DNA from: Tellurirhabdus rosea
GTDB lineage: Bacteria > Bacteroidota > Bacteroidia > Cytophagales > Spirosomataceae
Direction: 5' to 3'
Assembly (NCBI RefSeq): GCF_026278345.1
Contig: NZ_CP111085.1
Location: forward strand, 5,180,282 to 5,244,281
DNA length: 64,000 bases
Positions 1 through 64,000 of the stretch are shown here, one piece after another. Position numbers and translations under genes: made by a program. How positions within the stretch are numbered: the stretch's first letter is position 1; each line of letters starts with the position of its first letter. The notes under the pieces were generated by a model that did not search any database, had not been told where the DNA came from, and worked only from the letters and a program-made list of their open reading frames with translations.

Positions 1-23
1 CATTCAGTCATTCAATCAATCAA
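1..23. repeat. Half of a 3'-end inverted repeat cut by the window edge
   Basis: The first bases are made of the words ATTCAGTC and ATTCAATC and run straight into the stop codon of the next gene (TCA, 24-26). The right arm of the perfect hairpin at 3698-3776 has the same words and the same position relative to a stop codon. I infer that this is the right arm of another such element whose left arm lies outside the window. Confidence 0.5.
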
Positions 24-1388
24 TCATTCTTCATAATAGTACCCAAAAATAATTCCCATTTCCTCCTCACTGGTGAGGCCGAAGCTGACGGTTTTGGAGG
101 TCGTGTTGTTGTAGGTGATTTCCGAAGTCAGCCCTTCGCCCGCTTTGAGCGAAATCGGCGTGGGGAAGTTGATGATGTCGGGGTGTTCCCAGTCCGTGGT
201 CGTGTAGACCACTTCGCCGTCGCGGGAGCCACCCTTGATCCGGATGACAAACTTCTCGCCCAGTTTGTGCATGTGCGAGGTTAACGCCAGCACCTTGACA
301 TTCTTCGAAAACGTAAAACTCTTGATATGCGTCCGGCGCTGACCCGGCGGGGTGGTAATGCTCTCGTTGCTCCAGTTGATCGGCTTGACCGCGTATTTGA
401 CTTCGGCTTTATCGACCGTAAACAGGTTCAGAAACGCTTCGCCCTGAAACACCTTGTCGGACTTGTTGACGTAGTGCACATTCAGGTCGAGCGAGCTGTT
501 GGCGGGCAGCAGCAGGGCGGTGCCTTCCGGGAAGGTGTAATCGTGGTTGGGCGACTGGCTTCCGGCCATGAACACGTGGTTGGCCATCGACAGAAACGTG
601 GCGAGGTTGACCGAGTTGTCCGGATTGCGCAGGTCCCGCACTTGGTTCGCGGCGGGCAGGTTGGTCGTCCGGTCGAAGCCGTAGGCGATGAAGTGGTGGC
701 TGCCCGGCCGCATCTTGATCTGCACCCGTTTGACGTAAATGTCCGTCGAATTATTGAGCAGTCGCCGGACGAATAATTCCCGTTCGAAATTCGATTTGAC
801 GTCGAAGGGGTCAATTTTAAGCTGGAGTCCCTGTCCGGTAACCGGCGGCGCCAGCGGCGTAAAGGTGGCGTTGCTGCCGGTCTGGTCGTCCAGCAGGGCC
901 GCGTCCGCCACACTGCCCGTTTTGGGAGCGCCCGCCTCAATCCAGCGCCGTACAAACTCAATCTGTCCGGCCGAGAGGGGCGGTCGGCCCAGCGGCATGG
1001 GGTTGCCGTACTGTTTGCCGCCGTGGTGAGCCGCGTCGGTGTTCAGTTTGTGATAGAACAGGCTGCTCAGCGAATTGAACGGCTTTACGCGCAGCAGCCC
1101 ATCGGTTTTGGCGGAAGCATTGGCCGGGGCGACGTTGACCAGATTTTCGTAGGACTTCCCGGACGCCAGCACCAGCTTATGCTGTCCGAACGAGCCGTCC
1201 GACTCGGAGGCATGACAGCCGGTCATGGCGCAGTTCGTCGTCAGGATTTTCTCCTGAAGCAGATCAAAGCTGGCTTTTTCGGTGGGGTCCGGAGTATCCT
1301 CGGCGGGTTTGGTACAGGACAAAGTGCCCAGCAGCAAAGCCGCGCTCAACCCGGCTCCGTACGTAAATAGAGAAGATATTCTTCGCAT
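24..1388 (-). CDS. Lipoprotein with haem-like CX4CH motif and copper type II monooxygenase (PHM-like) fold
   Basis: 454 residues from the ATG at 1388; a TTG seven codons upstream is possible but would spoil the signal peptide. A hydrophobic leader ends in GTLSC (Cys25), which suggests a lipoprotein. Residues about 53-59 read CAMTGCH, a CX4CH variant of a haem c site. The middle has GSHHFIAYGF and the C-terminus has SHMHKLGEKF and EEEMGIIFGYYY, resembling the His-His, His-X-His and Met copper ligands of peptidylglycine monooxygenase-type proteins. The role is probably periplasmic or outer-membrane redox; the substrate is unknown. The CX4CH spacing is unusual and may not bind haem. Confidence 0.75.
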   Translation of the reverse strand: MRRISSLFTYGAGLSAALLLGTLSCTKPAEDTPDPTEKASFDLLQEKILTTNCAMTGCHASESDGSFGQHKLVLASGKSYENLVNVAPANASAKTDGLLRVKPFNSLSSLFYHKLNTDAAHHGGKQYGNPMPLGRPPLSAGQIEFVRRWIEAGAPKTGSVADAALLDDQTGSNATFTPLAPPVTGQGLQLKIDPFDVKSNFERELFVRRLLNNSTDIYVKRVQIKMRPGSHHFIAYGFDRTTNLPAANQVRDLRNPDNSVNLATFLSMANHVFMAGSQSPNHDYTFPEGTALLLPANSSLDLNVHYVNKSDKVFQGEAFLNLFTVDKAEVKYAVKPINWSNESITTPPGQRRTHIKSFTFSKNVKVLALTSHMHKLGEKFVIRIKGGSRDGEVVYTTTDWEHPDIINFPTPISLKAGEGLTSEITYNNTTSKTVSFGLTSEEEMGIIFGYYYEE

Positions 1389-1511
1389 ACAATCAGGATC
1401 AATCGGCAAGACTTACGAAGATAACGAAAAACCCCGCCATTTCGGCTGCCACCCGCCAGCGGAGGGGTTAAATTGTTATTAATCAGTGGTTGAGGCAGGG
1501 GAAGGTTTGGG

Positions 1512-1596
1512 GTTTAGGGTTTAGGGTTTATAGTTGCCCTGCCTCTTTACAATCACCTGATTGAGGCGGAGCAACTATAAACCCTAAACCCTAAAC
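1512..1596. repeat. 3'-end inverted repeat, 26-nt perfect arms
   Basis: The left arm 1512-1537 is exactly complementary to 1571-1596. Each arm holds reiterated GTTTAGG words ending in TATAGTTGC. The 33-nt loop has a further GCCTC/GAGGC pairing. The right arm ends 10 nt before the stop codon (1606) of the minus-strand methyltransferase, so the hairpin lies in the 3' end of its mRNA. Confidence 0.9.
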
Positions 1597-1605
1597 TCTA
1601 AACTT

Positions 1606-2379
1606 TTAAAACTTCAGCGTAAAATGCTGCTTCGGCTGCTGCTGCCGGAAAAAGACCAGGCCGACGTAAAACAGGTCCACCGTCACGACGACCTGTGGGT
1701 GGGCTTTGATAGCTTCCCAGGCCTGTTCCATCTCCGCCGACCAGTGAATGTCGTCGAAGACAAAACAGGTGTCGTTGTGAATCTTCGGCAGGCAGGTTTC
1801 AAAGTACCGGACCGTCGGCTCGTAGCGGTGATTGGCGTCGAAAAAGGCAAAATCGAGCCGGTCGATGGCGGCGATCTGCGCGGCCAGCGTTTCGTCCAGA
1901 TTGCCGACCACCGTCTGGATATTGGAATACCCGAGCCGGGCGAAATGGCTCCGGGCGCGGTCTGCCGTCTGAGGACAGCCTTCAAATGTGATGAGTTTTC
2001 CCTGCGGAACGGCCGCCGCTTCATAGAGGGTCGTCAGGCCGAGCGAGGTGCCGAGGTCGAACACCGTTTGGCACTCGAATCGGCGGAGCAGGCGGTACAG
2101 CAGTCGGGCAAACCGGGTCGGTTTCTGGGAGTGGCGGGCAATGTCGCGGATGGTGCGTTCGCGGGAGGCGTTGACTTTGGAACCGGCCCCGTAGTCCGTG
2201 ATGGCGATGGTTTCGCGGCTTTTCAGCAGTTCGCGGCGCAGGTCTTCGATGGGGGCAAAGGCCGGCTCGTCCGGTTCGTCGACCCGAATGGTTTTGGTGT
2301 ATAAATCGTAAAGAAACGGCGAATGAAGGGAATGCTCGTCGCGGGCATTCAGCAGGTAACGGAGGTACGCGGCAATCAA
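1606..2379 (-). CDS. Class I SAM-dependent methyltransferase
   Basis: 257 residues. The SAM-binding glycine-rich motif I, VFDLGTSLGLTTLYEA, lies near residue 110, followed by an acidic strand end (LITFEG). FAFFDANHRYEP near residue 175 and CFVFDDIHW near residue 205 resemble the metal and substrate region of O-methyltransferases of the class that includes catechol methyltransferases. No signal peptide, so cytoplasmic. The substrate cannot be told from sequence. It lies 87 bp downstream of apaG on the same strand, a gap that holds only a single GTTGAATGG-type word series. It is followed by the hairpin at 1512-1596. Confidence 0.8.
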   Translation of the reverse strand: MIAAYLRYLLNARDEHSLHSPFLYDLYTKTIRVDEPDEPAFAPIEDLRRELLKSRETIAITDYGAGSKVNASRERTIRDIARHSQKPTRFARLLYRLLRRFECQTVFDLGTSLGLTTLYEAAAVPQGKLITFEGCPQTADRARSHFARLGYSNIQTVVGNLDETLAAQIAAIDRLDFAFFDANHRYEPTVRYFETCLPKIHNDTCFVFDDIHWSAEMEQAWEAIKAHPQVVVTVDLFYVGLVFFRQQQPKQHFTLKF

Positions 2380-2466
2380 AAGAAAACGGTTAAAGTTGAA
2401 TGGTGAACGTTGAAGGCGGCCGACGCGGCGTTGACCTTTTGGTTCAAAATGATTTGATAATTGCTG

Positions 2467-2853
2467 TCAATTGAGGTGATAGGGCGTGATGAGCATGAAT
2501 TCGGGAATGTTGACCGTGATGCGACGGCCGTCGAAGAGGCGTTCCATGATGTAAATACCCTGCATTTTGCCCATGCCGGTCTTCAGGTTGCAGCCCGACA
2601 CGTAGGTATGCGACTCGCCCGGCTCCAGCACCGGCTGCTGCCCTACGACGCCCTCGCCCGAAACCTCCCGGACGACGCCGTTGGAATCGTAAATGGTCCA
2701 GTGCCGGTGCAGCAACTGCACGGTGTTTTCGCTGCCGTTCTCAATGGTGATCCGGTAGGTAAACACGTAGTGCGCGTGCATCGGGCTGGAGTGAGCCGGC
2801 TGGTACTCGGTCACCACACTGACTTTGACACCTTCTGTAACGGCAGAAACCAT
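2467..2853 (-). CDS. apaG: ApaG family protein
   Basis: 128 residues, the usual size for ApaG, a single-domain beta-sandwich protein linked to Co2+/Mg2+ resistance in enterobacteria but with no settled biochemical role. Family marks include VTEYQPAHSSPMHAHYVFTY near the N-terminus, LLHRHWTIYDSNG in the middle, and GVVGQQPVLEPGESHTYVSG followed by GxMxGxY (GMGKMQGIY). It starts 166 bp from the divergent ung start. No signal peptide. Confidence 0.93.
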   Translation of the reverse strand: MVSAVTEGVKVSVVTEYQPAHSSPMHAHYVFTYRITIENGSENTVQLLHRHWTIYDSNGVVREVSGEGVVGQQPVLEPGESHTYVSGCNLKTGMGKMQGIYIMERLFDGRRITVNIPEFMLITPYHLN

Positions 2854-3019
2854 GTTTTTGAACAGTTAACGCTTCTGGTTAGAACGAAAATTAGTTTTGT
2901 CAGTTTATAATTCCAAAAGTTCGCTTTTATTTTCTGGACTTATAAACAGCATCCGGGCAATTTTGTCCCTGAACGTCCGGTTTCGCCTGACCGCATCTCC
3001 GTTCTTAACATACCAATTG

Positions 3020-3685
3020 ATGAAAGTTGTCATTGAGCCTTCCTGGCAGCAGCGCCTGCACGACGAGTTCGAAAAGCCCTATTTCCCCAAATTAGCCGAG
3101 TTTGTCCGGCAGGAATATTCCACCCAGCGTTGTTATCCACCGGGTAAGCTGATTTTCAATGCCTTCGACCAGTGTCCTTTCGACGCGGTCAGGGTGGTGA
3201 TTCTGGGCCAGGACCCGTACCACGGCGAGGGGCAGGCCAACGGACTGGCCTTTTCGGTCAGCGACGGCATCACCAAGCCGCCTTCGCTGGTGAATATCTT
3301 CAAAGAAATTCAGGACGATCTCGGGAAGCCCGTTCCCAAATCGGGTAATCTAGAACGCTGGGCCGTACAAGGCGTGCTGTTGCTCAACGCCACGCTAACC
3401 GTCCGGGCGGGCCAGGCCGGGTCGCACCAGGGCAAGGGCTGGGAAGCGTTTACGGACGCCGCCATCAAACACGTTTCCGACGAAAAAGAAAATGTGGTTT
3501 TCCTGCTCTGGGGCGCTTACGCGCAAAAAAAAGGAGCCATCATCGACAGCTCCAAACACCTGGTCCTGACCTCCAAACACCCTTCTCCAATGGCCGCGCA
3601 ATGGGGCGGCTGGTTCGGCAACAAGCACTTCAGCCAAACCAACGAGTATCTGCGGAGCAAGGGGCTGGGGGAGATTGATTGGTAG
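3020..3685 (+). CDS. ung: Uracil-DNA glycosylase, family 1
   Basis: 221 residues from the ATG at 3020; the open frame extends 41 codons upstream but family proteins begin near here. It removes uracil from DNA in base-excision repair. The catalytic motif GQDPYHGEGQANGL (Asp general base and Tyr) lies near residue 66, the LLLNATLTV segment near 125, and the HPSPMAA minor-groove/His motif near 190. Divergent from apaG and convergent with lepB; a perfect 33-nt hairpin lies between the ung and lepB stop codons. Confidence 0.96.
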   Translation: MKVVIEPSWQQRLHDEFEKPYFPKLAEFVRQEYSTQRCYPPGKLIFNAFDQCPFDAVRVVILGQDPYHGEGQANGLAFSVSDGITKPPSLVNIFKEIQDDLGKPVPKSGNLERWAVQGVLLLNATLTVRAGQAGSHQGKGWEAFTDAAIKHVSDEKENVVFLLWGAYAQKKGAIIDSSKHLVLTSKHPSPMAAQWGGWFGNKHFSQTNEYLRSKGLGEIDW

Positions 3686-3697
3686 GTAATAACTGAA

Positions 3698-3776
3698 TGA
3701 TTGAATGACTGAATGACTGATTAGCTTCGCTAATTCTAGCCTTGCGAAGCTAATCAGTCATTCAGTCATTCAATCA
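3698..3776. repeat. 3'-end inverted repeat, 33-nt perfect arms, between convergent ung and lepB
   Basis: 3698-3730 is exactly complementary to 3744-3776 with a 13-nt loop. The arms carry GAATGACT words outside and TTAGCTTCGC inside. The right arm contains the lepB stop codon (3770-3772) and its last Asp codon; the left arm begins 12 nt after the ung stop. It would form a hairpin in both mRNAs. Confidence 0.95.
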
Positions 3777-4939
3777 ATAATATTGAACAGCCGGTTCCAC
3801 CGGATCTTGTTCAGGAATCCGTCCGGGTTGGGATCGACGGACATCCAGATGAAGACGGCTTTGCCGACGATATGGTCTTCGGGGACGAAGCCCCAGAAAC
3901 GGGAGTCGTAGGAGTTGTGGCGGTTGTCCCCCATCATGAAAAAGTAATCCTGCTGGAAGGTGTACGACGTGATGGCCTTGCCGTCGATGGAAACCGAGTT
4001 GGCGGTCAGGTCTACCTTTTCGTGCCCTTCAAAACGCTGGATGACCGGGCCGTAGAACAGGATGTTTTTGGCGTCGAGTTGAACGGTAACGCCTTTTTTG
4101 GGCACCGTCAGCGGACCAAAATTGTCAACCGTCCAGTTGTATTTGCCGCCGTCGTACAGACCCGACATCGACGGCTGACCCGGCTGCGGCGTTTCCTCGT
4201 AGGCCACCACTTCCTTGCACCAGTCGAACTGTTTGAACTGCTGGGCCGTCTGGTCGGTCGTCACGACGCGGTAGCCGATCAGCTTACCGGCGTTCGCCGA
4301 ATCGGCCTGCTCGGTAACGGGCTGCCAGTTGAGCGTCGGGCTGCTGGGGTCGCGGAAGTCGTTGACGATGTTGTATTTCCGGAAAAAATTCTCGTCCAGT
4401 TCGTAGCCGTTTGTCCGGATGAAATACGAGAACTGCATTTCTGTCGGGTTTTCGGCGGCTTTTCCGTTGACGAAGACTTGCCGGTGGCGCACTTCGACCA
4501 CGTCGCCCGGCAGACCGATGCAGCGTTTGATGTAGTTGGTCCGCAGGTCGGTCGGGTATTCGCTTTCGGGCGGGTAGTTGAACACCACCACGTCGCCGTG
4601 CTTCACGCTCGAAAAGCCCGGTAGCCGGTACTGCGGCAGCTGAATGGCCGTAGAATAGGAGGGAATGTCGGTGCCCCAGATTTTCTGGTGGGTCAGCGGG
4701 ACCTGAAGGGGCGTTTTGGGCGTCCGGGTTCCGTAATGCAGTTTACTGACAAACAAAAAATCGCCCACCAGGAGGCTCTTTTCCATCGAGGGCGTCGGGA
4801 TGGTAAACGCCTCCATGAACAGCCAGCGGATCAGGGTTGCCGCCACGACCGCAAACACGATGGAATCCAGCCACTCGCGGACGACCGATTTATTTTTTAC
4901 GGCGGGTTTAGTTTTGTTTTCCTGTTTGATAATTGCCAT
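3770..4939 (-). CDS. lepB: Signal peptidase I
   Basis: 389 residues; cleaves signal peptides of exported proteins at the outer face of the inner membrane. A membrane segment near residues 22-45 precedes the catalytic Ser in FTIPTPSMEKSLLVGD. The Lys base lies in YIKRCIGLPGDVVEV near residue 138, and box E is MMGDNRHNSYDSR near 342. Residues about 165-310 form an insertion larger than in the E. coli enzyme, as is common in Bacteroidota. It is last in the conserved string parA-parB-DUF5683-dapB-lepB and lies 84 bp after dapB. Confidence 0.95.
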   Translation of the reverse strand: MAIIKQENKTKPAVKNKSVVREWLDSIVFAVVAATLIRWLFMEAFTIPTPSMEKSLLVGDFLFVSKLHYGTRTPKTPLQVPLTHQKIWGTDIPSYSTAIQLPQYRLPGFSSVKHGDVVVFNYPPESEYPTDLRTNYIKRCIGLPGDVVEVRHRQVFVNGKAAENPTEMQFSYFIRTNGYELDENFFRKYNIVNDFRDPSSPTLNWQPVTEQADSANAGKLIGYRVVTTDQTAQQFKQFDWCKEVVAYEETPQPGQPSMSGLYDGGKYNWTVDNFGPLTVPKKGVTVQLDAKNILFYGPVIQRFEGHEKVDLTANSVSIDGKAITSYTFQQDYFFMMGDNRHNSYDSRFWGFVPEDHIVGKAVFIWMSVDPNPDGFLNKIRWNRLFNIID

Positions 4940-5023
4940 ACAATAGAGTCTGGAAAAAGGCTCTTTACATTAAGTTTCTACAAGTTTACTAAAATTTGCT
5001 GAGACCGCAGGCACTTCCCCGGT

Positions 5024-5749: not shown

Positions 5750-5764
5750 TTCAAACTGTTTTGT

Positions 5765-5873
5765 GTTTTGTGTTTTGTGTTTTGTGTTTTCCGTTTACGT
5801 AATGAGGCTAAACCAACTCAAGGCAACCAATTGAAAACCGCAAACGGAAAACAGAAAACACAAAACAGAAAAC
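5765..5873. repeat. 3'-end inverted repeat of TTTTGTG words
   Basis: 32-nt arms 5765-5796 and 5842-5873 pair at 30 of 32 positions. The left arm is GTTTTGT words ending in CCGTTT; the right arm has the complementary AAAACAC/AAAACAG series and reaches the DUF5683 stop codon (5873-5875). It lies between DUF5683 and dapB on the minus strand, 15 nt upstream of the dapB start. Confidence 0.9.
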
Positions 5874-6764: not shown

Positions 6765-6856
6765 TCTCGCAGATTTACGCGGATTTCCGGTCGCAGATCA
6801 GCGCAGAAAAAACACCTGCGGAAATCTGCGACGGAAATTCGCGTAAATCTGCGAGA
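6765..6856. repeat. 3'-end inverted repeat of GCAGATTTACGC words
   Basis: Left arm 6765-6798 and right arm 6824-6856 pair along about 33 nt with one gap and few mismatches (TCTCGCAGATTTACGCG outer part). The right arm ends 10 nt before the stop codon (6867) of the epimerase-family gene. The same words build the elements at 32410 and 40801. Confidence 0.88.
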
Positions 6857-15040: not shown

Positions 15041-16168
15041 ATGGATGTACTCATCATCGGCGGCGGACTGGCCGGACTTGTAAGCGCGCTGGAACTGGCC
15101 CGCAAAGGCTTTCGGATTACGTTAATTGAGAAGAAAACGTACCCTTTTCACAAAGTCTGCGGGGAGTACGTATCCAACGAAGTGCGGCCGTACCTGGAGT
15201 CGCTGGGCGTTGACCTGCGGGCGCTGGGCGCGTTGGTCATCGAACGCTTCCGGTTTACCTCGCCCTCGGGCCGTATGCTCGAAACGCGGCTGGACCTGGG
15301 CGGATTCGGTGTCAGTCGCTACACGCTCGACTACGCGCTCTACCAACTGGCCGAAGACGCCGGGGTGCAGTTTGTGCTCGGCAAGCAGGTGGACCGGGTG
15401 GACTTCGACGGCAATCAGTTCACAGCGGAACTTGCCGACGGGCAGCGGCTGGCGGCCCGGCTGGTGATCGGTGCTTTCGGCAAGCGTTCGAGGCTGGACA
15501 AACAACTGGGGCGGGCGTTCATGGAAAAGCCGTCGCCCTACGTGGGCGTCAAGTACCACATCCGACAGGGACCAACGCACCGGGGCTTTCCTACGGATAT
15601 TATTGCCCTGCATAATTTTCAGGACGGCTACTGCGGAATGTCGGCCATTGAGGAGGGCAAATACTGTTTCTGCTACCTCACTACCCGCGAAAATGTCCGG
15701 CAGTACGGCAGCATTCCGGCGATGGAACATGCCCTGATGTACCAAAATCCGCATCTGAAGGCTGTTTTCGAAACGTTCGAGTTTGTTTTTGACAAGCCCG
15801 AAGTCATCAACGAAATCTCTTTTGCGCCCAAACGGGCCGTCGAAGACCATATCCTGATGGCCGGCGACTCCGCCGGGCTGATTACGCCGCTCTGCGGCAA
15901 CGGCATGGCTATGGCCATTCATGGGGCCAAACTCGTCAGCGACGTATCCGCCGAATTTCTGCAAAACCGCATCAGCCGTTCGCAACTGGAAGCCCGGTAC
16001 GAGCAGGAGTGGCAGCGGCAGTTTGCCCGTCGTCTGTGGGTAGGCCGCACCGTGCAGAAGCTTTTCGGTGCCCCCCGCCTCTCCGAACTCGCCATCTCCG
16101 TCTTCGGCTTCAAACCCCTTCTCCACGGAGTCATGCGCCAAACGCACGGGAAGGTGCTGGTGGGGTGA
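15041..16168 (+). CDS. FAD-dependent oxidoreductase, geranylgeranyl-reductase-like
   Basis: 375 residues. The N-terminal dinucleotide motif is DVLIIGGGLAGLVSALELAR with the acidic strand end LIEKK near residue 34. KVCGEYVSNE follows, where the family has a conserved Cys-Gly, and the second FAD motif is MAGDSAGLITPLCGNGM near residue 275. These place it in the p-hydroxybenzoate hydroxylase-like group with geranylgeranyl reductases and related enzymes that hydrogenate or halogenate lipids. A role in polyene pigment or isoprenoid lipid modification is a guess. Convergent with the Lrp gene; the shared 3' region is a large inverted repeat. Confidence 0.82.
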   Translation: MDVLIIGGGLAGLVSALELARKGFRITLIEKKTYPFHKVCGEYVSNEVRPYLESLGVDLRALGALVIERFRFTSPSGRMLETRLDLGGFGVSRYTLDYALYQLAEDAGVQFVLGKQVDRVDFDGNQFTAELADGQRLAARLVIGAFGKRSRLDKQLGRAFMEKPSPYVGVKYHIRQGPTHRGFPTDIIALHNFQDGYCGMSAIEEGKYCFCYLTTRENVRQYGSIPAMEHALMYQNPHLKAVFETFEFVFDKPEVINEISFAPKRAVEDHILMAGDSAGLITPLCGNGMAMAIHGAKLVSDVSAEFLQNRISRSQLEARYEQEWQRQFARRLWVGRTVQKLFGAPRLSELAISVFGFKPLLHGVMRQTHGKVLVG

Positions 16169-16413
16169 AGAAAGGGGAATTTTGAATGATTGAATGACAG
16201 AATGACTGATAGGGCTGTCGGGGCGGTTGAATGATGAATGGTTGAATTTTGAATGTTGAATGTTGGCTCCGCAGGGGTTAAGGAAGTGGAGTAACTCAAC
16301 CGCCTCGGCGGCCCCATCAACCCGCCGGCCCCATCATCTATCAGTCATTCAGTCACTCAGTCATTGAACATTCAAAATTCAATCATTCAAAATTCCCCCT
16401 TTCTCACCCCACC
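16159..16413. repeat. Large compound inverted repeat between two convergent genes
   Basis: The outer arms start inside both genes: GGTGGGGTGA at 16159-16168 (oxidoreductase end) pairs with TCACCCCACC at 16404-16413 (Lrp gene end), each including a stop codon. The stem continues through GAAAGGGG and AATTTTGAATGATTGAAT, then GAATGACTGAT. A nested stem pairs GGGGCGGTTGA (16220 region) with TCAACCGCC. The arms differ in the number of GAATG-type words. Confidence 0.88.
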
Positions 16414-16868
16414 GGCACTACGGTCGTGTTTTTCACTTCTGCCATCACGAAAAAGCTGCTGATGTGGAGGATGCCGGGGATGACCGAAAGGCGGTTCTGG
16501 TAGAACTGGTTATAGCTTTCCATGTCGCGGACGATGATCTTCAGCAGGTAGTCGAAGGAACCCGAAACCCGGTTGCATTCCAAGATCTCGGGTAGGCTGG
16601 CGGCGGCCTGGTCGAAGTCGGCGAAGGTGTCGCGAGTCTGTTTGTCGAGCGTCACCTGACAGTAGACCATGAGCGTATTCCCGAGTTTTTTCTTGTTGAC
16701 GAGCATCACGTAGCGGTCGATAACGCCCTCTCGTTCGAGGCGCTTAATGCGTTCATGGACAGGCGTTTTTGACAGGTTGATCTGCTGGCCGATTTCCTGG
16801 ATGGTCAGCCGGGCATCTTCCTGGAGAAGCTTCAGAATCTTCTGGTCAATCGCATCGAGTTCGGTCAT
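16404..16868 (-). CDS. Lrp/AsnC family transcriptional regulator
   Basis: 154 residues, standard length. The N-terminal winged helix-turn-helix is DAIDQKILKLLQEDARLTIQ to SKTPVHERIKRLEREGVIDR. The C-terminal RAM/ligand domain follows from about residue 65 (VYCQVTLDKQTRDTFADF, CNRVSGSFDYLLKIIVRDME). Such regulators sense amino acids. It is divergent from alanine dehydrogenase, and the 192-bp space holds two perfect palindromes and a repeat overlapping the ald start point, so it very likely controls ald and itself. Confidence 0.94.
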   Translation of the reverse strand: MTELDAIDQKILKLLQEDARLTIQEIGQQINLSKTPVHERIKRLEREGVIDRYVMLVNKKKLGNTLMVYCQVTLDKQTRDTFADFDQAAASLPEILECNRVSGSFDYLLKIIVRDMESYNQFYQNRLSVIPGILHISSFFVMAEVKNTTVVPVG

Positions 16869-18245: not shown

Positions 18246-18277
18246 AAAAGCGCGGCCAGTTTGTGCCGCGCTTTTTT
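18246..18277 (+). terminator. Intrinsic terminator after ald
   Basis: AAAAGCGCGGC pairs with GCCGCGCTTTT around a short loop and is followed by a run of six T. Confidence 0.88.
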
Positions 18278-18323
18278 CAAAAAATAAATGCCATATCTGC
18301 GAGATATGGCATTTATTTTTTGA
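18277..18323. terminator. Bidirectional terminator between ald and hisS
   Basis: A perfect 21-bp stem (TCAAAAAATAAATGCC outer part to ATATC) with the 5-nt loop TGCGA. A/T-rich flanks give T runs on either strand. It lies 10 nt after the minus-strand hisS stop, so it mainly serves hisS and backs up the ald terminator. Confidence 0.85.
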
Positions 18324-18332
18324 AAAAAGAAG

Positions 18333-19710: not shown

Positions 19711-19802
19711 CAAAGTCGTAAGTCATAAAGTCGCAGGTAGCTCTGCCAGGCTAGAAAACGGCAAACCACCTACGACTTGCGACTTTATGACTTACGACTT
19801 TG
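19711..19802. repeat. Inverted repeat between divergent hisS and a small ORF, 25-nt perfect arms
   Basis: 19711-19735 (CAAAGTCGTAAGTCATAAAG...) is exactly complementary to 19778-19802. It has AGTCGTAAG words like the parA element. Unlike most family members it lies between divergent genes; the right arm includes the -33 TTTG of the plus-strand promoter. Confidence 0.92.
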
Positions 19803-21396: not shown

Positions 21397-21484
21397 ACCG
21401 GGATTACACAGATTTAAGGATTCACTTGATTTTTTATTGAGGCGAAGCAATCATAGTTAATCCTTTAATCTGTGTAATCCCGGT
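21397..21484. repeat. 3'-end inverted repeat between convergent genes, 26-nt arms
   Basis: 21397-21422 (ACCGGGATTACACAGATT...) pairs with 21459-21484 with one mismatch. The loop contains TTGAGGCGAAGCAATCATA, nearly the same as TTGAGGCGGAGCAACTATA in the element at 1512. The right arm ends 8 nt before the serine hydrolase stop. Confidence 0.9.
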
Positions 21485-26622: not shown

Positions 26623-26732
26623 GAATGAGTGAATGAGCGGTCCGCCGCCGCGGTGGATAGCTTCGCTGTCCAACATCAATGCTTGTCAGCGGAGCTATTC
26701 ACCGCGGCGGCGGACCGCTCATTCACTCATTC
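26623..26732. repeat. 3'-end inverted repeat, 46-nt arms, longest in the window
   Basis: 26623-26668 pairs with 26687-26732 at 44 of 46 positions around an 18-nt loop. The outer part is GAATGAGTGAATGA words, then GCGGTCCGCCGCCGCGG, then ATAGCTTCGCTG. The right arm covers the stop codon (26723-26725) and last codons of the TPR/binding protein gene. The left arm begins 13 nt upstream of the hemL start. Confidence 0.95.
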
Positions 26733-32259: not shown

Positions 32260-32409
32260 GTCGAAACCGTGTTTGCGTCGTTACGGGATGTAAAGGTACG
32301 GAGAATTTGGCGGAGGGGAAAGAAAAAAGTCGGGGGATTGGGATAAGGATTTGGCAGTCAGCAGAAATAAATCCGGACGGGTTTTCGGAAGAAGAAAAAG
32401 AGAGCAGTT

Positions 32410-32507
32410 GTTTGTTTCTCGCAGATTATCACAGATTTTATGCGCAGATTCAAAAATAGCTGCGCTAATCTGCGTCAGAAATTTGTGATAATCTGCGAGA
32501 AACAAAC
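32410..32507. repeat. Inverted repeat between divergent pyrG and a GNAT gene, 24-nt perfect arms
   Basis: 32410-32433 (GTTTGTTTCTCGCAGATTAT...) is exactly complementary to 32484-32507; weaker pairing with GCAGATT words continues inside. One of the few members not next to a stop codon; the right arm ends 12 nt before the GNAT start. Confidence 0.9.
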
Positions 32508-32519
32508 ACCTTTCCGTCC

Positions 32520-34308: not shown

Positions 34309-34384
34309 GTATCCACGGGCTTCAGCCCGTGAATGGCTAAGAGAAATCGAACCGTCCCCCTCACAGGCTGAAGCCTGTGGATAC
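34309..34384. repeat. 3'-end inverted repeat with GGGCTTCAGCCC palindromes
   Basis: 34309-34332 pairs with 34361-34384 at 22 of 24 positions. Each arm holds a smaller palindrome (CGGGCTTCAGCCCG or AGGCTTCAGCCT). A third copy of the CGGGCTGAAGCCCG unit lies near 34405-34420. It begins 15 nt after the RraA-like stop codon. Confidence 0.9.
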
Positions 34385-40800: not shown

Positions 40801-40873
40801 TTCTCGCCGATTTACGCCGATTTCAGACGCCGATTTGTAGTAATCAGCGCAAATCCGCGTAAATCGGCGAGAA
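40801..40873. repeat. 3'-end inverted repeat of CGATTTACGC words
   Basis: The core arms TTCTCGCCGATTTACGC (40801-40817) and 40857-40873 pair perfectly over 17 nt, with weaker pairing inside. It begins 7 nt after the GH67 stop codon and precedes the SDR gene. Same word type as at 6765 and 32410. Confidence 0.85.
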
Positions 40874-41667: not shown

Positions 41668-41670
41668 CCG

Positions 41671-41793
41671 TAACGCGGAGTGATACTCCGAAAAAACCTG
41701 TAACGCGGAGTATCACTCCGCGCAGACCCGTAAGAGCCAAAATTAAAAGCCAAATCCTGCGGTTTTTCGCGGAGTATCACTCCGCGTTACAGG
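41671..41793. repeat. Three-copy inverted repeat between convergent SDR and FGE-like genes
   Basis: TAACGCGGAGTGATACTCCG (41671-41690) pairs perfectly with 41771-41790, and a second copy at 41697-41722 pairs with 41768-41793 at 23 of 26 positions. Each unit is itself nearly palindromic (GCGGAGT/ACTCCGC). The right arm contains the stop codon (41787-41789) and the last Leu codon of the FGE-like gene, and CCTGTAACGCGG is copied to the other arm. Confidence 0.9.
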
Positions 41794-48509: not shown

Positions 48510-49489
48510 CAGTGGTTGTTGACCAGCCGCACCTCGACGGCAATGTCCTTGCCCTCGGCGTTTTTACCGATATGGAACGACACCTCGTCGTCGATGTTCA
48601 GTTCGTTGAAGTCCGAACCCATTAGGCTGGTGTAGTGGAAAAACAGGTTGTTGGGCGGGTAATTGATGAAGCCGTACCCGTTTTTCAGCGTCCGGATGGT
48701 GCTGATTTTGATTTCGTTCGGATCGTCGTCATACGCCCCATCATCATCCCCATCAAAGCTGAAGTTCAGACCGTCGGTGATGCTTACCGCCGCGCCGTTG
48801 GTGACCCCGTTCTGTACGCGCGTGGCCGACTGTTTGACAAACAGGTTGTTCACCAGCGAATCGCCCGTACGCAGGCCGTTTTCGATGCGTTCGTGCATGG
48901 CTACGGGGTACGAAACTTCGCGCAGCAGGTCCTGCGATGTGCGCGTTACCTGGCGGTCGCCTTCGTCGTTGTAATATTCAAAATCCCAGCTCAGCACCAT
49001 AACCCGGGTGCCGAGGGTGTTCAGTTTGCGGATCAGGGGAACATAATCGCCGTCGGCCGTGATGAGAACCAGCACGTCGAAGTTCTTGTAAAACGCCAGT
49101 TCGTACGCTTCCAGGGCGAGCCAGACGTCAATTCCTTTTTCCTGGCGCTTATCGTGGTAGGTTTTTACTGGAAGGTAGTGCGTTACCACGCCTTCCGACA
49201 TCAGAATATCATCGAACAGCCGGTCGTAGAACAGCTGGTTTCCGCGCTGGCTGGCTTCATGGGCGTTGAGGCGACCCCGGAAATAGTGGGCATCCACAAT
49301 CTGGCAAAGGCGGGGGTCGTTATCTTCGGCTTCAGCTACCTGCTGACGAATAAACTCGTGGAGGCCGGAAATGCTGATCCGGCTGCGTCTTTCGTGAGAA
49401 TAATTGTAGTAGTTACTTACATGCAGAAAATAATTCCCATCATAGAATACCGCAATACGTGTAAGCTTGCTGTTTTTTTCAGTGTGCAT
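48509..49489 (-). CDS. NYN-domain protein with C-terminal cold-shock-like domain
   Basis: 326 residues. The N-terminal NYN (PIN-like) nuclease fold runs from about residue 10 to 195: RIAVFYDGNYFLHVSNYYNY with the first acidic residue, EKGIDVWLALEAYELAF near 115, and DVLVLITADGDYVPLIRKLN near 140, which would bind metal. After an acidic linker (FDGDDDGAYDDDPNE), residues about 260-325 resemble a cold-shock/S1-like RNA-binding domain (TLKNGYGFINYPPNNLFFHY, DEVSFHIG). It is probably an RNA-binding endonuclease. First gene of a pair with pabB. Confidence 0.87.
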   Translation of the reverse strand: MHTEKNSKLTRIAVFYDGNYFLHVSNYYNYSHERRSRISISGLHEFIRQQVAEAEDNDPRLCQIVDAHYFRGRLNAHEASQRGNQLFYDRLFDDILMSEGVVTHYLPVKTYHDKRQEKGIDVWLALEAYELAFYKNFDVLVLITADGDYVPLIRKLNTLGTRVMVLSWDFEYYNDEGDRQVTRTSQDLLREVSYPVAMHERIENGLRTGDSLVNNLFVKQSATRVQNGVTNGAAVSITDGLNFSFDGDDDGAYDDDPNEIKISTIRTLKNGYGFINYPPNNLFFHYTSLMGSDFNELNIDDEVSFHIGKNAEGKDIAVEVRLVNNH

Positions 49490-51704: not shown

Positions 51705-51715
51705 AGGGAATTAAG

Positions 51716-51827
51716 AGTTATGAGTTAAGAGTTATGAGTTGGCTTCGCTTATTGCGGTTATCTGCTCAAGCGAAGCCAACTCATAACTCATAACTCTTAA
51801 CTCTTAACTCATAATTCTTAATTCTTA
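51716..51827. repeat. 3'-end inverted repeat of GAGTTAT words between convergent genes
   Basis: The core arms GAGTTATGAGTTGGCTTCGC(TT) at 51729-51750 and 51768-51789 pair perfectly over 22 nt with a 17-nt loop. Outer arms continue as GAGTTAAGAGTTAT words, more numerous on the right, and reach the radC stop codon (51825-51827). Confidence 0.92.
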
Positions 51828-55349: not shown

Positions 55350-56327
55350 ATGAAAGCAGACACCATTTTGGTTATTGGAGCAAATGGGCAGATTGGTACG
55401 GCCCTGCTGCCCCGGCTTCAAACCCTGTACGGCGAAGGGGCGGTCATCGCGACGGACCTTCGGCTTCCTGCCCGGCAGACCGGTCGCTTCGAAATCCTCG
55501 ACGCCACCGACGCTAAGGGGCTGGCCGAGCTGGTTCGCCGGCACGGAATCACCCAGATTTATCACCTCGCCGCCGTTCTTTCCGCCAAAGGCGAAGCCGA
55601 CCCGCTCTGGGCCTGGAACCTGAACATGCAGACGCTGTTGAACGTGCTGGAAGTAAGCCGCACGGAAGGCGTAAAAAAGGTCTTCATCCCGAGTTCCATC
55701 GCCGCTTTCGGCGAACACGCCCCGCAGACCGACACGCCGCAGAACGCCTACCTCGACCCGGCCACGGTCTACGGAATCAGCAAGGCCGCCGGCGAAAACT
55801 GGGGACAGTATTATGTCAAACGCTACGGTCTGGATGTGCGCTCGCTGCGCTATCCGGGCATCATCAGCTACGAAGCCCTGCCCGGCGGCGGCACCACCGA
55901 CTACGCCGTGGCTATCTTCCACGAAGCGGTGCAGGGCCGGAACTACGAGTGCTTTCTGGCCGAAAATACCCGCCTGCCGATGATGTACATGGACGACGCC
56001 CTGCGCGCCACCCTCGAACTGATGGAGGCGCCGGCCGGGCAGCTGACCGTCCGGACGTCGTACAACCTGGCCGGATTCAGTTTTACGCCTGCCGAACTGA
56101 CGACCGCCATCCGGCACCATTTCCCGGATTTCAGCGTCACCTACAAACCCGACTTCCGGCAGGCCATTGCGGAGTCGTGGCCGCGCTCAATCGATGATTC
56201 GGTTGCCCGGCAGGACTGGGGCTGGAAACCCGCCTACGACCTCAACCGGATGACCTACGAAATGATCGCCAACCTGACGGCGGTGTACGGCCGCACTGAT
56301 AAAGTCGTTGAAACGTTTAAGGTTTAA
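55350..56327 (+). CDS. NAD-dependent L-threonine dehydrogenase, SDR/epimerase type
   Basis: 325 residues. Oxidises L-threonine to 2-amino-3-oxobutyrate. The Rossmann motif is VIGANGQIGTALLPRL at 8-23, the catalytic Tyr-Lys pair is in TVYGISKAAGENWGQYYVKR near residue 140, and FIPSSIAAFGEHAP near 112 holds the Ser. RYPGIISYEALPGGGTTDYA near 168 is a strong mark of the epimerase-type threonine dehydrogenases. Followed by kbl, which completes the route to glycine. The stop codon lies in the left arm of an inverted repeat. Confidence 0.93.
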   Translation: MKADTILVIGANGQIGTALLPRLQTLYGEGAVIATDLRLPARQTGRFEILDATDAKGLAELVRRHGITQIYHLAAVLSAKGEADPLWAWNLNMQTLLNVLEVSRTEGVKKVFIPSSIAAFGEHAPQTDTPQNAYLDPATVYGISKAAGENWGQYYVKRYGLDVRSLRYPGIISYEALPGGGTTDYAVAIFHEAVQGRNYECFLAENTRLPMMYMDDALRATLELMEAPAGQLTVRTSYNLAGFSFTPAELTTAIRHHFPDFSVTYKPDFRQAIAESWPRSIDDSVARQDWGWKPAYDLNRMTYEMIANLTAVYGRTDKVVETFKV

Positions 56328-56408
56328 CGTTTAACGTGGCTCCGCCGCTGCGGTGTCTTCGCCCTGCTACAACCATCTGATGGGGCGGAGCCACGTTAAA
56401 CCTTAAAC
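56315..56408. repeat. 3'-end inverted repeat between tdh and kbl with one extra word in one arm
   Basis: 56384-56408 is perfectly complementary to 56315-56346 apart from one extra 7-nt TTTAACG copy in the left arm. The inner part is GTGGCTCCGCC. The left arm includes the tdh stop codon (56325-56327). It lies within the probable tdh-kbl operon, 23 nt before the kbl start. Confidence 0.92.
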
Positions 56409-56431
56409 TTTAAACCTTATAACCTAGATAT

Positions 56432-57994: not shown

Positions 57995-58214
57995 GAGACG
58001 ATAAGGTCGAAAGAATGGATCAAATTAACTCAGGTTTGGGGAAGAATAGCGGATTAAGACAGATAAAAATTGCTAAAATACTATAGAAGTCGTTAAAATT
58101 AGGTAGTAATACTTGCATTATTGATAGTATCTATTTGACAAGATGCCGTAGGTTTATAAGGTTTGTGCCAGCTTTTGTGGAATACATACCTAACCCTTGC
58201 CAAGTCTTGTACCT

Positions 58215-59885: not shown

Positions 59886-59894
59886 AAACGAGCC

Positions 59895-60335
59895 ATGCAA
59901 CTTCGTCTGATCACCGCCCTGTTTTTGGTTCTGCTGGGTTCGGGATGCATCAATACCCGTCCCCGGCCCATGACGCTCACCTGCAACCTGAGCAAGGAGC
60001 AGTTTGTAGAGGAGTGTACCCGGCTGCTGCGGCAGAACGGGTATAAGATTATCGAGGAGAATGCCGCTATGGCGCGGGTCCGGGCTACGAAAGGGCAGAA
60101 CCAGACCAACATGGGCGAAAACATGCAGTACAATGGGCCGTATCTTTTCGATGCCACTTACGATGAAGGGCGAATTGTGGTGAGCGTCGCCACGATCATC
60201 CGGGTCATCAACGCCGACGAACAGCCGTTCATTCTGCAAACGCATAACGAAGGCCGGGGCACCAGCGGGGCCGACAAAAAGTTCTTCGTGCCGGTGCTGG
60301 ACGGGCTTCGAAAAAGGTGCGCCCGGTTGCCCTGA
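59895..60335 (+). CDS. Small lipoprotein, unknown
   Basis: 146 residues, MQLRLITALFLVLLGSGCIN with lipobox GSGC (Cys18). The mature domain has TCNLSKEQFVEECTRLLRQN followed by GYKIIEENAAMARVRATKG, an alpha/beta pattern, and VVSVATIIRVINADEQPFIL strands. No family recognised. It is probably co-transcribed with the porin-like gene and ends in a strong terminator. Confidence 0.75.
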   Translation: MQLRLITALFLVLLGSGCINTRPRPMTLTCNLSKEQFVEECTRLLRQNGYKIIEENAAMARVRATKGQNQTNMGENMQYNGPYLFDATYDEGRIVVSVATIIRVINADEQPFILQTHNEGRGTSGADKKFFVPVLDGLRKRCARLP

Positions 60336-60347
60336 GGCCATCGGGGA

Positions 60348-60376
60348 GGGCTGTGCACGGCACAGCCCTTTTTTTT
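60348..60376. terminator. Intrinsic terminator
   Basis: GGGCTGTG-CACGG-CACAGCCC, a perfect 8-bp stem, followed by eight T. Serves the lipoprotein gene; it lies 7 nt from the converging LacI-family stop. Confidence 0.88.
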
Positions 60377-60382
60377 GACCGT

Positions 60383-61405
60383 TTACCGTCGCAGCGACGA
60401 CTCGCGGACGATCAGCTTCGTCGGCATCACTTTCGTCTCCACCGGCACCGCTTCGTCGCCGGATTCCAGGTGGGCCAGCAGCAGCCGGACGGTTTCGAGC
60501 CCCATTTCCTGAATCGGCTGACTCACACTGGACAGCGAAGGGGAGAGGTAGGCCGAAACGGGTTCGTTGTTGAAACTCACCACCGCCAGATCTTCCGGAA
60601 TCCGTAACCCCCTCTGTTTCATTACGTACAAAGCCGGATAGGCGATCCGGTCGCTGATGGTCAGCAGGCCGTCCAGCGGCTGGGGGAGGCTCATCAGCGC
60701 CAGCGTCTGCATGATCGTGTTTTCCTGCGTGTAATCGCAATGGAAAATATGGTGATTCTCGACCGGGAGGCCGTGTTTTCGCAGCGCATCCTGATACCCG
60801 GCAATGCGGCGGTTGCTGAGCAGCAGCTGCGGCGGTCCGGCCAGAAAGCCAATGCGGCGGCAGCCCTGTTCAATCAGGTGCTCGGTCGCCTTAAAGGCCG
60901 CTTCGTGGTTATCGACGATCACCTTTGAGGCCGGAATGTCGTCCGCATACCGGTCAAACAGCACCAGCGGGAAATTCCGTCGGGTCAGGCGCTCGACATG
61001 CTGGTAGTTGTCGGTATCCCGCGAGAGCGAAATAATGATGCCTTCCACCTGGCTGCGCAGCAGGTTCTGAATCTGCGTCACCTCCCGCAGCGACGATTCG
61101 TTTGTCTGACAAACCAGCACGCTATAGCCCGCCTGAAGGGCCGCATCCTCGATGCTGTTAAGCATCGCCGAGAAGTAATAGTAACTCAGATTCGGAACAA
61201 TCACCCCGATCGTGCGCGTCCGGCTCTTGGCCAGGCTGGTAGCCAGCTGGTTGGGCTGGTAATCCATTTCTTCGGCCAGCTGCATGACGGCCCTGCGCGT
61301 GTCCGGATGAATTTCCGGCATGCCACGCAGCGCCCGGGAGACGGTCGAAATAGAGATGTTCAGAGACTGAGCAATATCCTTGATGCGGACGGGAGTATTT
61401 TTCAT
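60383..61405 (-). CDS. LacI family transcriptional regulator
   Basis: 340 residues. The N-terminal LacI helix-turn-helix is RIKDIAQSLNISISTVSRAL with the hinge region YQPNQLATSLAKSRTRTIGV. The periplasmic-binding-like ligand domain follows (IVPNLSYYYFSAMLNSIEDA, LVLFDRYADDIPASKVIVDN, RIGFLAGPPQLLLSNRRIAG). It is divergent from the GH88-SusC genes, so it likely controls them in response to a sugar. Confidence 0.94.
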   Translation of the reverse strand: MKNTPVRIKDIAQSLNISISTVSRALRGMPEIHPDTRRAVMQLAEEMDYQPNQLATSLAKSRTRTIGVIVPNLSYYYFSAMLNSIEDAALQAGYSVLVCQTNESSLREVTQIQNLLRSQVEGIIISLSRDTDNYQHVERLTRRNFPLVLFDRYADDIPASKVIVDNHEAAFKATEHLIEQGCRRIGFLAGPPQLLLSNRRIAGYQDALRKHGLPVENHHIFHCDYTQENTIMQTLALMSLPQPLDGLLTISDRIAYPALYVMKQRGLRIPEDLAVVSFNNEPVSAYLSPSLSSVSQPIQEMGLETVRLLLAHLESGDEAVPVETKVMPTKLIVRESSLRR

Positions 61406-61758
61406 GAGTAGGGGTAAGAGCCTGTTTTCATTTTTTCCGGAAAGGAACCGTTTGTGAAAGTTCTGTGCCTGGGTCAGTGTTGTTCTGGCCTGTTTTGGAA
61501 GTTGTCACAATTATAGGAAAAAAAGTAATATTTATTGAATCTACAAACCTTCATGCAAACGCTTGCGGTAGCGATTGCGGAAAAATTTTCGAACTATTTC
61601 TTGAATTAGCACAAAAAAAGCTTGCTCAGGGGGCATATGCCCTGTAGCTTCAAAGAACTATTGGCAACCGGGGTCCTGTCCGGTACCTGTAGGGAGTAAA
61701 TTACATAAGGATGCAACCCCTGAATCAAATTGTATTTTTCTAATCAAGTCCTTACCCA
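61406..61758. promoter_or_regulatory. 353-bp control region between LacI regulator and GH88
   Basis: GCAAACGCTTGC at 61555-61566 is a near-palindrome of the LacI-family operator type (central CG). AAGCTTGCTCAGGGGGCATA and the following bases to 61651 form a stem with CAGGG/CCCTG around GCATATGC, possibly in the GH88 leader. TATTTTTC at 61733-61740 is one base off a -7 box. No gene was seen here. Confidence 0.55.
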
Positions 61759-62943
61759 ATGAAACACGGTTTCCTGTTTGTTCTGCTGTTTGTCGCCCAG
61801 GCTGTTTCGGCGCAGAAGGCCATCAATGTCGATGCTGAATTTGCTTCTGCGGCAAAGCAGTACGAGGCCATGCTGCGGTCCCTGCCGGATACAACCCGCT
61901 TCCCGCAGTCGACGCTGCCCGACGGCAAACTCCGGCTGATGCCGTCGTCCTGGTGGTGCAGCGGATTTTTCGGCGGTTCTCTCTGGTATATCTTCGAACG
62001 GACGGGCGATGCCCGCTTCCGGGAGGCGGCCCACCGCTGGTCAATGGCTGTTCAGAAAGAGCAGGCCAACACCCGTACGCATGACCTCGGCTTTATGCTC
62101 TACTGCCCGCTGGGCAACGGCTACCGGCTCACCAAGAATCCGGCTTACCGTCCGATAATGCTGACCGGTGCCAAGTCGCTGGCTACCCGTTTCCGCCCGG
62201 ACTACGGCGTCATTAAGTCGTGGGACGGGTACAAGGACGGGGCGGGCAAGCGCTACGAATACCCGGTCATCATCGACAACATGATGAACCTGGAGTTCCT
62301 GTTCTGGGCCGCCCGCGAATCCGGCGACAAGACGCTCTATAACCTTTGCCTGTCGCATGCCGACAGCACGATGAAGTACCACTACCGCCCCGACATGAGC
62401 AGCTACCACGTCGTTTGTTACGGCGATGGCGGCAAGGTGCTGGCCCAGCGCACGCACCAGGGCGCCGCCGACGAGTCGGCCTGGGCACGCGGACAGGCCT
62501 GGGGTCTGTACGGTTATGTGGTCATGTACCGCGAAACGAAGGATAAAAAGTACCTGAACTTTGCCCGCCGCATTGCGGACTTCATCCTGAAGCACAAAAA
62601 CCTGCCCGCCGACAAGATTCCGTACTGGGATTTCGACCGGCCGGGCGAAGAGCGGGATGCCTCGGCGGGAGCCATCATGGCGTCGGCCCTGCTCGAACTG
62701 AGCACGTACGGCGGCGCGTCGAAGACTTACTTCAAAGCGGCCGAACAGATGCTGCAAAGCCTGTCGTCACCGACCTACAAAGCGGCTCCGGGCGAAAACA
62801 ACAACTTTATCCTGAAGCACAGCGTCGGCCACAAACCGGCCAAAAGCGAAGTCGATACGCCGCTGATTTACGCGGATTATTATTACCTGGAAGCCCTGCT
62901 GCGGTACGATGGACTGCGTAAAAAAACGGCGCTGAAATCGTAA
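61759..62943 (+). CDS. GH88 family glycoside hydrolase (unsaturated glucuronyl hydrolase)
   Basis: 394 residues. A signal peptide ends near AVSAQ. Removes the 4,5-unsaturated uronic acid left by polysaccharide lyases. The (alpha/alpha)6 barrel shows the two catalytic-region Asp motifs, NTRTHDLGFMLYCPLG near residue 115 and PVIIDNMMNLEFLFWA near 173. SSWWCSGFFGGSLWYIFE near 60 and HQGAADESAWARGQAWGLYG near 235 are family marks. Followed by SusC, as in a polysaccharide-utilisation locus. Confidence 0.93.
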   Translation: MKHGFLFVLLFVAQAVSAQKAINVDAEFASAAKQYEAMLRSLPDTTRFPQSTLPDGKLRLMPSSWWCSGFFGGSLWYIFERTGDARFREAAHRWSMAVQKEQANTRTHDLGFMLYCPLGNGYRLTKNPAYRPIMLTGAKSLATRFRPDYGVIKSWDGYKDGAGKRYEYPVIIDNMMNLEFLFWAARESGDKTLYNLCLSHADSTMKYHYRPDMSSYHVVCYGDGGKVLAQRTHQGAADESAWARGQAWGLYGYVVMYRETKDKKYLNFARRIADFILKHKNLPADKIPYWDFDRPGEERDASAGAIMASALLELSTYGGASKTYFKAAEQMLQSLSSPTYKAAPGENNNFILKHSVGHKPAKSEVDTPLIYADYYYLEALLRYDGLRKKTALKS

Positions 62944-62945
62944 GG

Positions 62946-63038
62946 TGCCCGGGTGATGCTGGATAGGGGACGTTTGACACTGGACAGTAGACACTAGACA
63001 CTGATCTGTCTCCAGCGCCAACCCTCCAGCGCCCGGCA
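62946..63038. repeat. Weak 3'-end inverted repeat after GH88
   Basis: TGCCCGGGTGATGCTGGA (62946-62963) pairs with TCCAGCGCCCGGCA (63025-63038) with gaps, and GGACAG with CTGTC inside. The interior has GACACTGGACAGTAGACACT words like those at the IS256 target site. It is a likely but diverged member. Confidence 0.45.
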
Positions 63039-63096
63039 TCCTTCGGACAAGGAACGAACTAATGACTTTATTTTCAATCAATTACCTTTACCTTCC

Positions 63097-64000
63097 ATGA
63101 GTACAAACGAATACTCCGGTGTTTCCAAACCGGGGCTGGGCCGGTTCGTGTGCGGCTCGGCGCTGCTGGTAGCCCTGATGATGCCCGGACTGTCGCTGGC
63201 ACGCCCGGAAAAATCAGTGCTGATCGCTACGGCCGAACAAACGGTGAGCGGCCGGGTGACCGACGAAAAAGGGGAGGCCCTGCCGGGAGTGAGTGTGTCG
63301 CTGAAAGGCACGACCCGGGGAACGTCCACCGACAATACCGGGCGTTTCCAACTAGTGGTGCCGGGACCCGAAGCCGTCCTGGTTTTCAGCTATATCGGCT
63401 ATGCCAATCAGGAAATCACGGTGGGCAACCGCCAGTCGTTCGATGTTAAACTGGTGTCGGACGAGCAGAACCTGAACGAAGTGGTGGTGGTCGGTTACGG
63501 CACCCAGCGCAAGAGTGATATTACCGGCTCGCTGTCGTCGGTATCGGCCAAGGAAATCCGGGCCACGCCGATCACGGGCGTCGGACAGGCGCTGCAGGGC
63601 CGGGCGGCCGGGGTGTTTGTGACCCAGGCTTCCAACGCGCCGGGCGGCGGCGTATCGATCCGCGTGCGGGGGGGTAACTCCATCAACGCCGGCAACGAGC
63701 CGCTGTACGTCATCGACGGCTTTCCGGTCTATAACGAAAACGGCCCGAACCTGAACCCCAACGATATTGAGTCGATGGAAATCCTGAAAGACGCCTCCGC
63801 CACGGCCATTTACGGTTCGCGGGGTGCTAACGGGGTAGTCCTTATCACGACCAAACGCGGAAAATCAGGCCAGAACCGTATCGAACTGGAAACGTATTAC
63901 GGCATCCAGAACGTCCGGAAGCAGATTCCGATGCTGAACGCCCGGGAGTACGCCCAGCTGGTGAACGAAGCGCAGGTCAATGCCGGGCGGCCGGTGGTCT
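63097..64000 (+). CDS. SusC/RagA TonB-dependent outer-membrane receptor, partial
   Basis: The first 301 residues of a protein normally near 1000; it runs off the window end. A leader with SALLVALMMPGLSLA precedes the N-terminal carboxypeptidase-like domain (VSGRVTDEKGEALPGVSVSL near residue 50, RGTSTDNTGRFQL). The SusC-specific stretch NLNEVVVVGYGTQRKSDITG follows near 125, then the plug domain (VRGGNSINAGNEPLYVIDGF, DASATAIYGSRGANGVVLIT). It imports glycans with a SusD partner, expected downstream. 153 bp after GH88, in one locus with the LacI regulator. Confidence 0.95.
   Translation, partial: MSTNEYSGVSKPGLGRFVCGSALLVALMMPGLSLARPEKSVLIATAEQTVSGRVTDEKGEALPGVSVSLKGTTRGTSTDNTGRFQLVVPGPEAVLVFSYIGYANQEITVGNRQSFDVKLVSDEQNLNEVVVVGYGTQRKSDITGSLSSVSAKEIRATPITGVGQALQGRAAGVFVTQASNAPGGGVSIRVRGGNSINAGNEPLYVIDGFPVYNENGPNLNPNDIESMEILKDASATAIYGSRGANGVVLITTKRGKSGQNRIELETYYGIQNVRKQIPMLNAREYAQLVNEAQVNAGRPVV

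Follow-up and report, generated by a model that had tools for sequence, protein, structure and literature searches.

The REP/BIME/REPIN sequences (PMC3733652, PMC3116915) comprise hundreds of intergenic palindromes, which mostly lie just 3′ of genes and are patchily distributed between species. The elements described here resemble them in all of these respects, and the property by which REPs and REPINs are recognized, namely a high copy number of palindromes in intergenic DNA shortly past stop codons, is found in them as well. However, our elements, which we refer to as word hairpins, have longer arms that are built of tandem 7/8-mers, carry no GTAG or CGTC tag at the stem base, do not flank the Y1 transposase genes that were inspected, and have arms that are rewritten in place. 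Furthermore, GT pairs are frequent in GTAG REPs (PMC3733652), whereas word hairpins show no G·U enrichment. A second related phenomenon is the correction of quasipalindromes by replication template switching, as described for E. coli reporters (PMC6357072), yeast (PMC8604942) and RNA genes (PMC8794818), which shares with our elements the homogenization of arms, the inversion of the spacer and compensatory changes of several bases. The known cases are scattered single sites, whereas here the process apparently maintains hundreds of elements per genome that are enriched at 3′ ends.

With respect to the words themselves, TAACTGA heptamer repeats are known from Beggiatoaceae, Cyanobacteria and some Bacteroidetes as direct repeats that mostly lie upstream of start codons (PMC4679880). 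Both kinds of sequence are intergenic 7-mers with stop codons rotating through all frames and a patchy occurrence across phyla, but the words described here form both arms of a hairpin at gene 3′ ends, with a strict polarity towards its core. The STRRs of cyanobacteria are further heptamer tandem repeats. Finally, cruciform-capable inverted repeats of E. coli are enriched just past stop codons, and a role at the DNA level has been suggested for some of them; the parts of that report considered here describe short arms and loops, many within intrinsic terminators, and contain no description of a word structure or common core (PMC6060812). The literature searched did not yield a comparable class for Bacteroidota.

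The stretch that drew our attention, henceforth the window, comprises 64,000 nt (positions 5180282-5244281) of the Tellurirhabdus rosea genome, a single contig of 5.58 Mb. For comparison, we used 400 kb of a genome of the same genus (G001) and stretches around yidC from Larkinella humicola (300 kb), Larkinella C7 (300 kb) and Larkinella punicea (200 kb). The YidC protein of the window matches that of G001 at 80%, those of Larkinella at 71-73% and those of Runella at 59-60%, which places the genome in the Spirosomataceae (Cytophagales, Bacteroidota); the Larkinella species compared have a nucleotide identity of approximately 92%. Genes were called with a home-made codon-usage model, and the assignment of spaces as convergent, tandem or divergent depends on these calls.

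A first-pass annotation of the window had claimed at least 20 intergenic spaces with a long inverted repeat, 19 of them near a stop codon. A gapless finder (score>=13) indeed returned 20 repeats in spaces, though 18 rather than 19 lie no more than 40 nt from a stop codon, and some of the 20 belong to other classes, i.e., a terminator-like sequence at 18271-18329 and REP-like palindromes at 34309 and 41670. By the codon-model gene calls, two (19711 and 32409) are in divergent spaces. The arms that had been quoted for 1512-1596, 3698-3776, 19711-19802, 32410-32507 and 26623-26732 are exact. An Rfam scan of the 64-kb window gave no match to a curated RNA family. The following features, none of which is assigned to a strand, are referred to below:

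1505..1603, word hairpin of GTTTAGG words; arms of 41 nt with 4 mismatches, loop of 17 nt, perfect part (26/26) at 1512-1596
3698..3776, word hairpin of TGAATGAC words with core GCTTCGC/GCGAAGC; arms perfect (33/33), fills a convergent space
5765..5873, word hairpin of GTTTTGT/GTTTTCT words; arms of 32 nt, loop of 45 nt, starting on the stop codon's final base
6765..6856, hairpin of the TCTCGCAGATTTACGCGGATT family; arms of 25 nt
16154..16418, long word hairpin; arms of 42 nt, fills a convergent space and reaches 15 nt into both genes
18271..18329, ordinary bidirectional intrinsic terminator; stem 28/28, loop of 3 nt, T tracts, a class apart from the word hairpins
19711..19802, word hairpin of AGTCGTA words; arms 25/25, divergent space by codon-model gene calls
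21397..21484, ACCGGGATTACACAGATTTAAGGATT-family hairpin located in a convergent space
26623..26732, word hairpin of GAATGAGT words with the CGGTCCGCCGCCGCGG module and a GCTTCGC core; arms 44/46, one of which includes a TPR gene's stop codon
30474..30556, word hairpin of AGGTATG words; arms of 23 nt, CTP synthase on one side and yidC on the other
32409..32508, TCTCGCAGATT-family hairpin with arms of 30 nt, of which the quoted part 32410-32507 is 24/24
34309..34384, REP-like palindrome (CACGGGCTTCAGCCCGTG); lacks the word structure and is included for its position only
40801..40873, TCTCGCCGATT-family hairpin that lies 7 nt 3′ of the stop of a GH67 gene
41670..41790, REP-like palindromes (CGGAGTATCACTCCG, several copies); convergent space, not word-built
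51711..51807, word hairpin of GAGTTAA/GAGTTAT words with core GGCTTCGC/GCGAAGCC; arms of 40 nt, convergent space
56315..56415, word hairpin of GTTTAAG words with core GGCTCCGCC; arms of 32 nt, outer arm extending 13 nt within the upstream gene

The survey was extended first to 464 kb and then, in stretches, to 1.264 Mb of the window genome. In the 464 kb, strong repeats (score>=18) numbered 73 between genes and 0 in coding DNA. The 1.264 Mb contained 170 strong inverted repeats in intergenic spaces, as opposed to none in three dinucleotide shuffles of every space. Elements were present in 59/134 (44%) convergent, 97/587 (17%) tandem and 13/153 (8%) divergent spaces, though the density per gene 3′ end is about the same in convergent and tandem spaces. 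The claimed proximity to stop codons holds: the distance from the stop codon to the arm of a tandem element has a median of 6 nt (at most 20 nt in 79 of the 97 elements), as compared to a median of 31 nt between the element and the next start codon. Convergent elements take up the full space, with a median of 1 nt left over; for element-free convergent spaces, the median length is 75 nt. At 49 of the 217 gene ends adjoining an element, the full stop codon lies within the arm, and the hairpin at 3698..3776 covers the final 7 nt of the minus-strand gene.

The elements share a common anatomy. Their arms, with a median length of 31 nt, have a strong periodicity at 7 nt (z=19) and 8 nt (z=12), and the layout is one of tandem 7/8-mer words, a GC-TNC-GC core, a loop of 13-23 nt (longer in individual window elements, e.g., 45 nt) and the reverse complement. 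The main word families are TGAATGAC, GAGTTAA, GTTTAAG and AGTCGTA, with TCTCGCAGATTTACGCGGATT as an additional family; one inner core is common to most elements of the first three and to some AGTCGTA elements. Polarity is strict, such that TGAATGA reads inward in 32 elements and GCTCCGC in 29, and neither ever reads outward. The core of the window genome occurs with TCC (67), TTC (38) or TAC (3) in the 1.26 Mb, whereas that of Larkinella is GC-TGAC-GC. On the opposite strand, these cores read GC-GNA-GC and GC-GTCA-GC (the latter of the GC-GNNA-GC type), sequences that presumably form very stable single-strand DNA mini-hairpins and that are here located on each 3′ arm; a role of this mini-hairpin core in priming is speculation. 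Stop codons occur in more frames on the inward-reading than on the outward-reading strand (76 versus 35 elements, p=0.0001). The first-pass annotation is supported in seeing one recurring 3′-end class rather than copies of one transposon.

Two elements of the window genome (1889-2010 and 7928-8075 of a joined 400-kb stretch) have an identical loop and core, and one of them carries the 16-nt module CGGTCCGCCGCCGCGG in both arms, which recurs at 26623-26732 of the window inside another word family. The orientation of 13-nt loops relative to transcription could be read for seven loops, one of them in a tandem space.

In G001, none of 21 orthologous spaces has an element, as compared to 8 elements in the same spaces of the window genome; therefore, the evolution of the arms was measured in Larkinella. 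The 400 kb of G001 contain 8 strong repeats, ordinary terminators among them, and G001 has no match to the TGAATGAC pattern, against 230 in the window genome. The space between the TPR gene and hemL, which holds the window element 26623-26732, has word hairpins of the same kind in Larkinella species and only decayed arm-like sequence in G001. Hence, this element looks ancestral, and would have been lost from G001.

Between Larkinella species, a space keeps its element in 24/41 and 21/24 cases (odds ratios 26 and 57), though presence and absence of elements also differ between sister species. This strong persistence of position could reflect a function. Complementary double changes in the arms were far more frequent than expected in the Larkinella pairs (15 vs 0.56, 17 vs 0.97 and 5 vs 0.16; Poisson p approximately 1e-16 for the first two), with the caveat that alignment of repetitive arms may misplace changes. 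At locus 96336, the identical change is found at arm positions 4, 11 and 18, that is, in three successive words, and in both arms. A stepwise intermediate is seen at locus 177625, where a change in the left arm is present in two species and the matching right arm in one only. At loci 109649 and 153863 the core is kept and the words are swapped; at 153863, furthermore, a stop inside the element's word stands in place of the stop codon of the neighboring gene in one species. Among 35 orthologous loops compared, 7 (at 6 loci) are inverted at z>5 and 10 are direct, where the test for inversion is passed by 0.9% of pairs of unrelated loops (p=2e-8); for example, AGGGTGGAACGTTTAGAAC corresponds to AGGATGGAACGTTTAAAAC after reverse complementation. 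These compensatory changes, concerted word changes and loop inversions bear out the suggestion that the arms are kept complementary while their sequence changes.

Covariation alone could stem from selection on a DNA or an RNA hairpin. For an RNA-level hairpin acting in termination, protection from exonucleases or RNase processing, and kept paired through compensatory mutation under selection, one would expect G·U on the transcribed strand to be tolerated more than A·C. In tandem spaces of the window genome and Larkinella, the stems of our elements have 98 G·U and 109 A·C mismatches. Intrinsic terminators of the same genomes and G001, scored with equal penalties, have 81 and 25, i.e., an excess of about 3:1 that the elements lack (Fisher p=7e-7). 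The RNA-level reading is weakened by this difference, and loops that are inverted between species, and thus flipped relative to the gene, also speak against it, as does the near absence of elements from G001, even though the space orthologous to 3698..3776 there carries a classic terminator, as a role in RNA would suggest. Moreover, most word hairpins have no T tracts, and G+C-rich hairpins with a T tract are found at a minority of element-adjoining 3′ ends, similar to element-free ends. The idea that elements and intrinsic terminators exclude each other is not supported: the odds ratios in the window genome are 0.97 (p=1) for tandem and 0.61 (p=0.09) for convergent spaces, and the Larkinella convergent ends gave 0/44 versus 9/110 (p=0.06), such that there is no statistically clear avoidance or replacement of terminators. 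A function in termination is putative at most. Tight placement after stop codons, persistence of position and arm covariation all agree with an RNA hairpin, but in view of the mismatches, the flipped loops, the terminators and G001, the first-pass proposal that the pairing serves one is improbable.

Pairing that is kept without the wobble signature of RNA would also fit a selected structure in the DNA, e.g., a cruciform that buffers topology or replication-transcription conflicts where genes converge, and indeed the share of spaces with an element peaks in convergent spaces, which the elements fill. Nevertheless, we consider this improbable, given that gene 3′ ends carry elements at similar densities whether the space is convergent or tandem, and that a sister genome, G001, manages without elements.

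Taking these observations together, the elements are probably REP-like 3′-end palindromes whose arms are kept matched at the DNA level by template switching during replication. The covariation of the arms, the inversion of loops, the persistence of position and the lack of wobble are shown by the data, and the homogenization of arms and the inversion of the spacer are the described outcomes of template switching (PMC8604942, PMC8794818). The matching gene ends at 16154-16418 and the 16-nt module present in both arms of one of two elements with equal loop and core also speak for this reading. We infer a switching event in which a hairpin would form during replication, and the nascent strand would move onto the other arm, or onto the sister strand, as template. 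One arm would thereby be copied over the other, such that mismatches are corrected, a changed word comes to lie in both arms and the loop may be inverted. Such copying could also extend the palindrome outward up to the coding sequence. Words with frequent stop codons on the inward-reading strand may be tolerated at the stop codon of a gene or might replace it, which may in part explain the location at 3′ ends. If termination is affected at all, this would be a side effect.

However, in-place correction alone is not a sufficient explanation for the presence of the same words and a genome-specific core at many loci. New elements could arise by ectopic template switching between elements, or through a transposase. 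The elements might even be palindromes that perpetuate themselves without an enzyme of their own, with template switching both maintaining and propagating them, the short core seeding fold-back copying, arms being formed from available words (gene ends among them), and an exchange of cores and words between loci giving each genome its own vocabulary at its gene ends; as yet, we regard this extension as unlikely.

Alternatively, the palindromes could be transposable (REP/REPIN or MITE-like) and moved by a RAYT or other transposase, the differences between arms then representing many subfamilies. The core that the word families of a genome have in common would fit this, as would the patchy copy number (0 to approximately 300 word matches per species within one family), the presence/absence differences between sister species, and the fact that Y1 transposase genes are present in the window genome and Larkinella and none in G001. 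But at the 12 Y1 loci inspected, there were other palindromes or none, and no word hairpins, and genome G127 has 30 word matches without a Y1 match; Y1 transposases thus appear not to be required for the spread. A RAYT origin was rejected on the same grounds. The stem base is not enriched in GTAG (16/340, versus 16 in control windows) or CGTC (17/340, versus 54), and the co-evolution of the arms in place is likewise at odds with subfamilies. As a full account, transposition therefore is somewhat doubtful, though it may account for the spread of the elements beside their maintenance by template switching. Two Y1/RAYT-like transposase genes (G000:C1:935989 and 3594555) are each flanked by their own palindromes (CGTCGCGTAGCGACC; AACCGTTTCAACGGTTT), and one of these genes has two internal stops.

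A 2017 paper, cited in PMC6357072, states in its title that exonuclease I aborts template switching in E. coli. The C-terminal domain of this enzyme was not detected in the 8 genomes tested, the window genome included, and exonuclease VII (XseA) was not detected in the window genome. G001 likewise lacks both, yet has no elements, and their absence is hence permissive at most and not sufficient. Loss of exonuclease VII as a switch was rejected, since the enzyme is also absent from G001 and many word-free genomes. In Spirosomataceae, the exonuclease VII large subunit is above cut-off in 46/201 genomes, nearly all of them in genera g3, g5, g9, g19 and g29.

Covariation in stems is usually taken as proof of a functional RNA structure. 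The loci described here are a natural warning case, because strong covariation at hundreds of loci per genome is accompanied by a mismatch pattern and loop inversions that point to DNA copying. Furthermore, the elements are a large natural data set for the measurement of template switching in bacteria, and they provide a testable explanation for the accumulation of long palindromes at the ends of genes.

The triple word GAGTTAW is found in 33/297 Bacteroidota genomes (21/141 genera). Words also occur without a hairpin, since some genomes hold tandem arrays on one strand: in G394, G431, G400, G386 and others, GAGTTAT words form strand-biased tandem arrays, e.g., 18 forward and 0 reverse.

At 16154-16418 of the window, the last 15 nt of both convergent genes match (GTGCTGGTGGGGTGA / GTGCCGGTGGGGTGA), whereas the ends of the L. 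humicola orthologs differ (GGGGAGGTTATCGCGGTCGAAAAATAG in the first gene, ATTCCGGTGTGA in the second). The simplest reading of this single locus is that one gene end may have been overwritten with a copy of the other. In L. humicola, a further single site (49101-49259), when compared to C7, is a nearly clean filled/empty site, with short flanks of similar sequence (GGAATT/GAAATT) that could be a target duplication.
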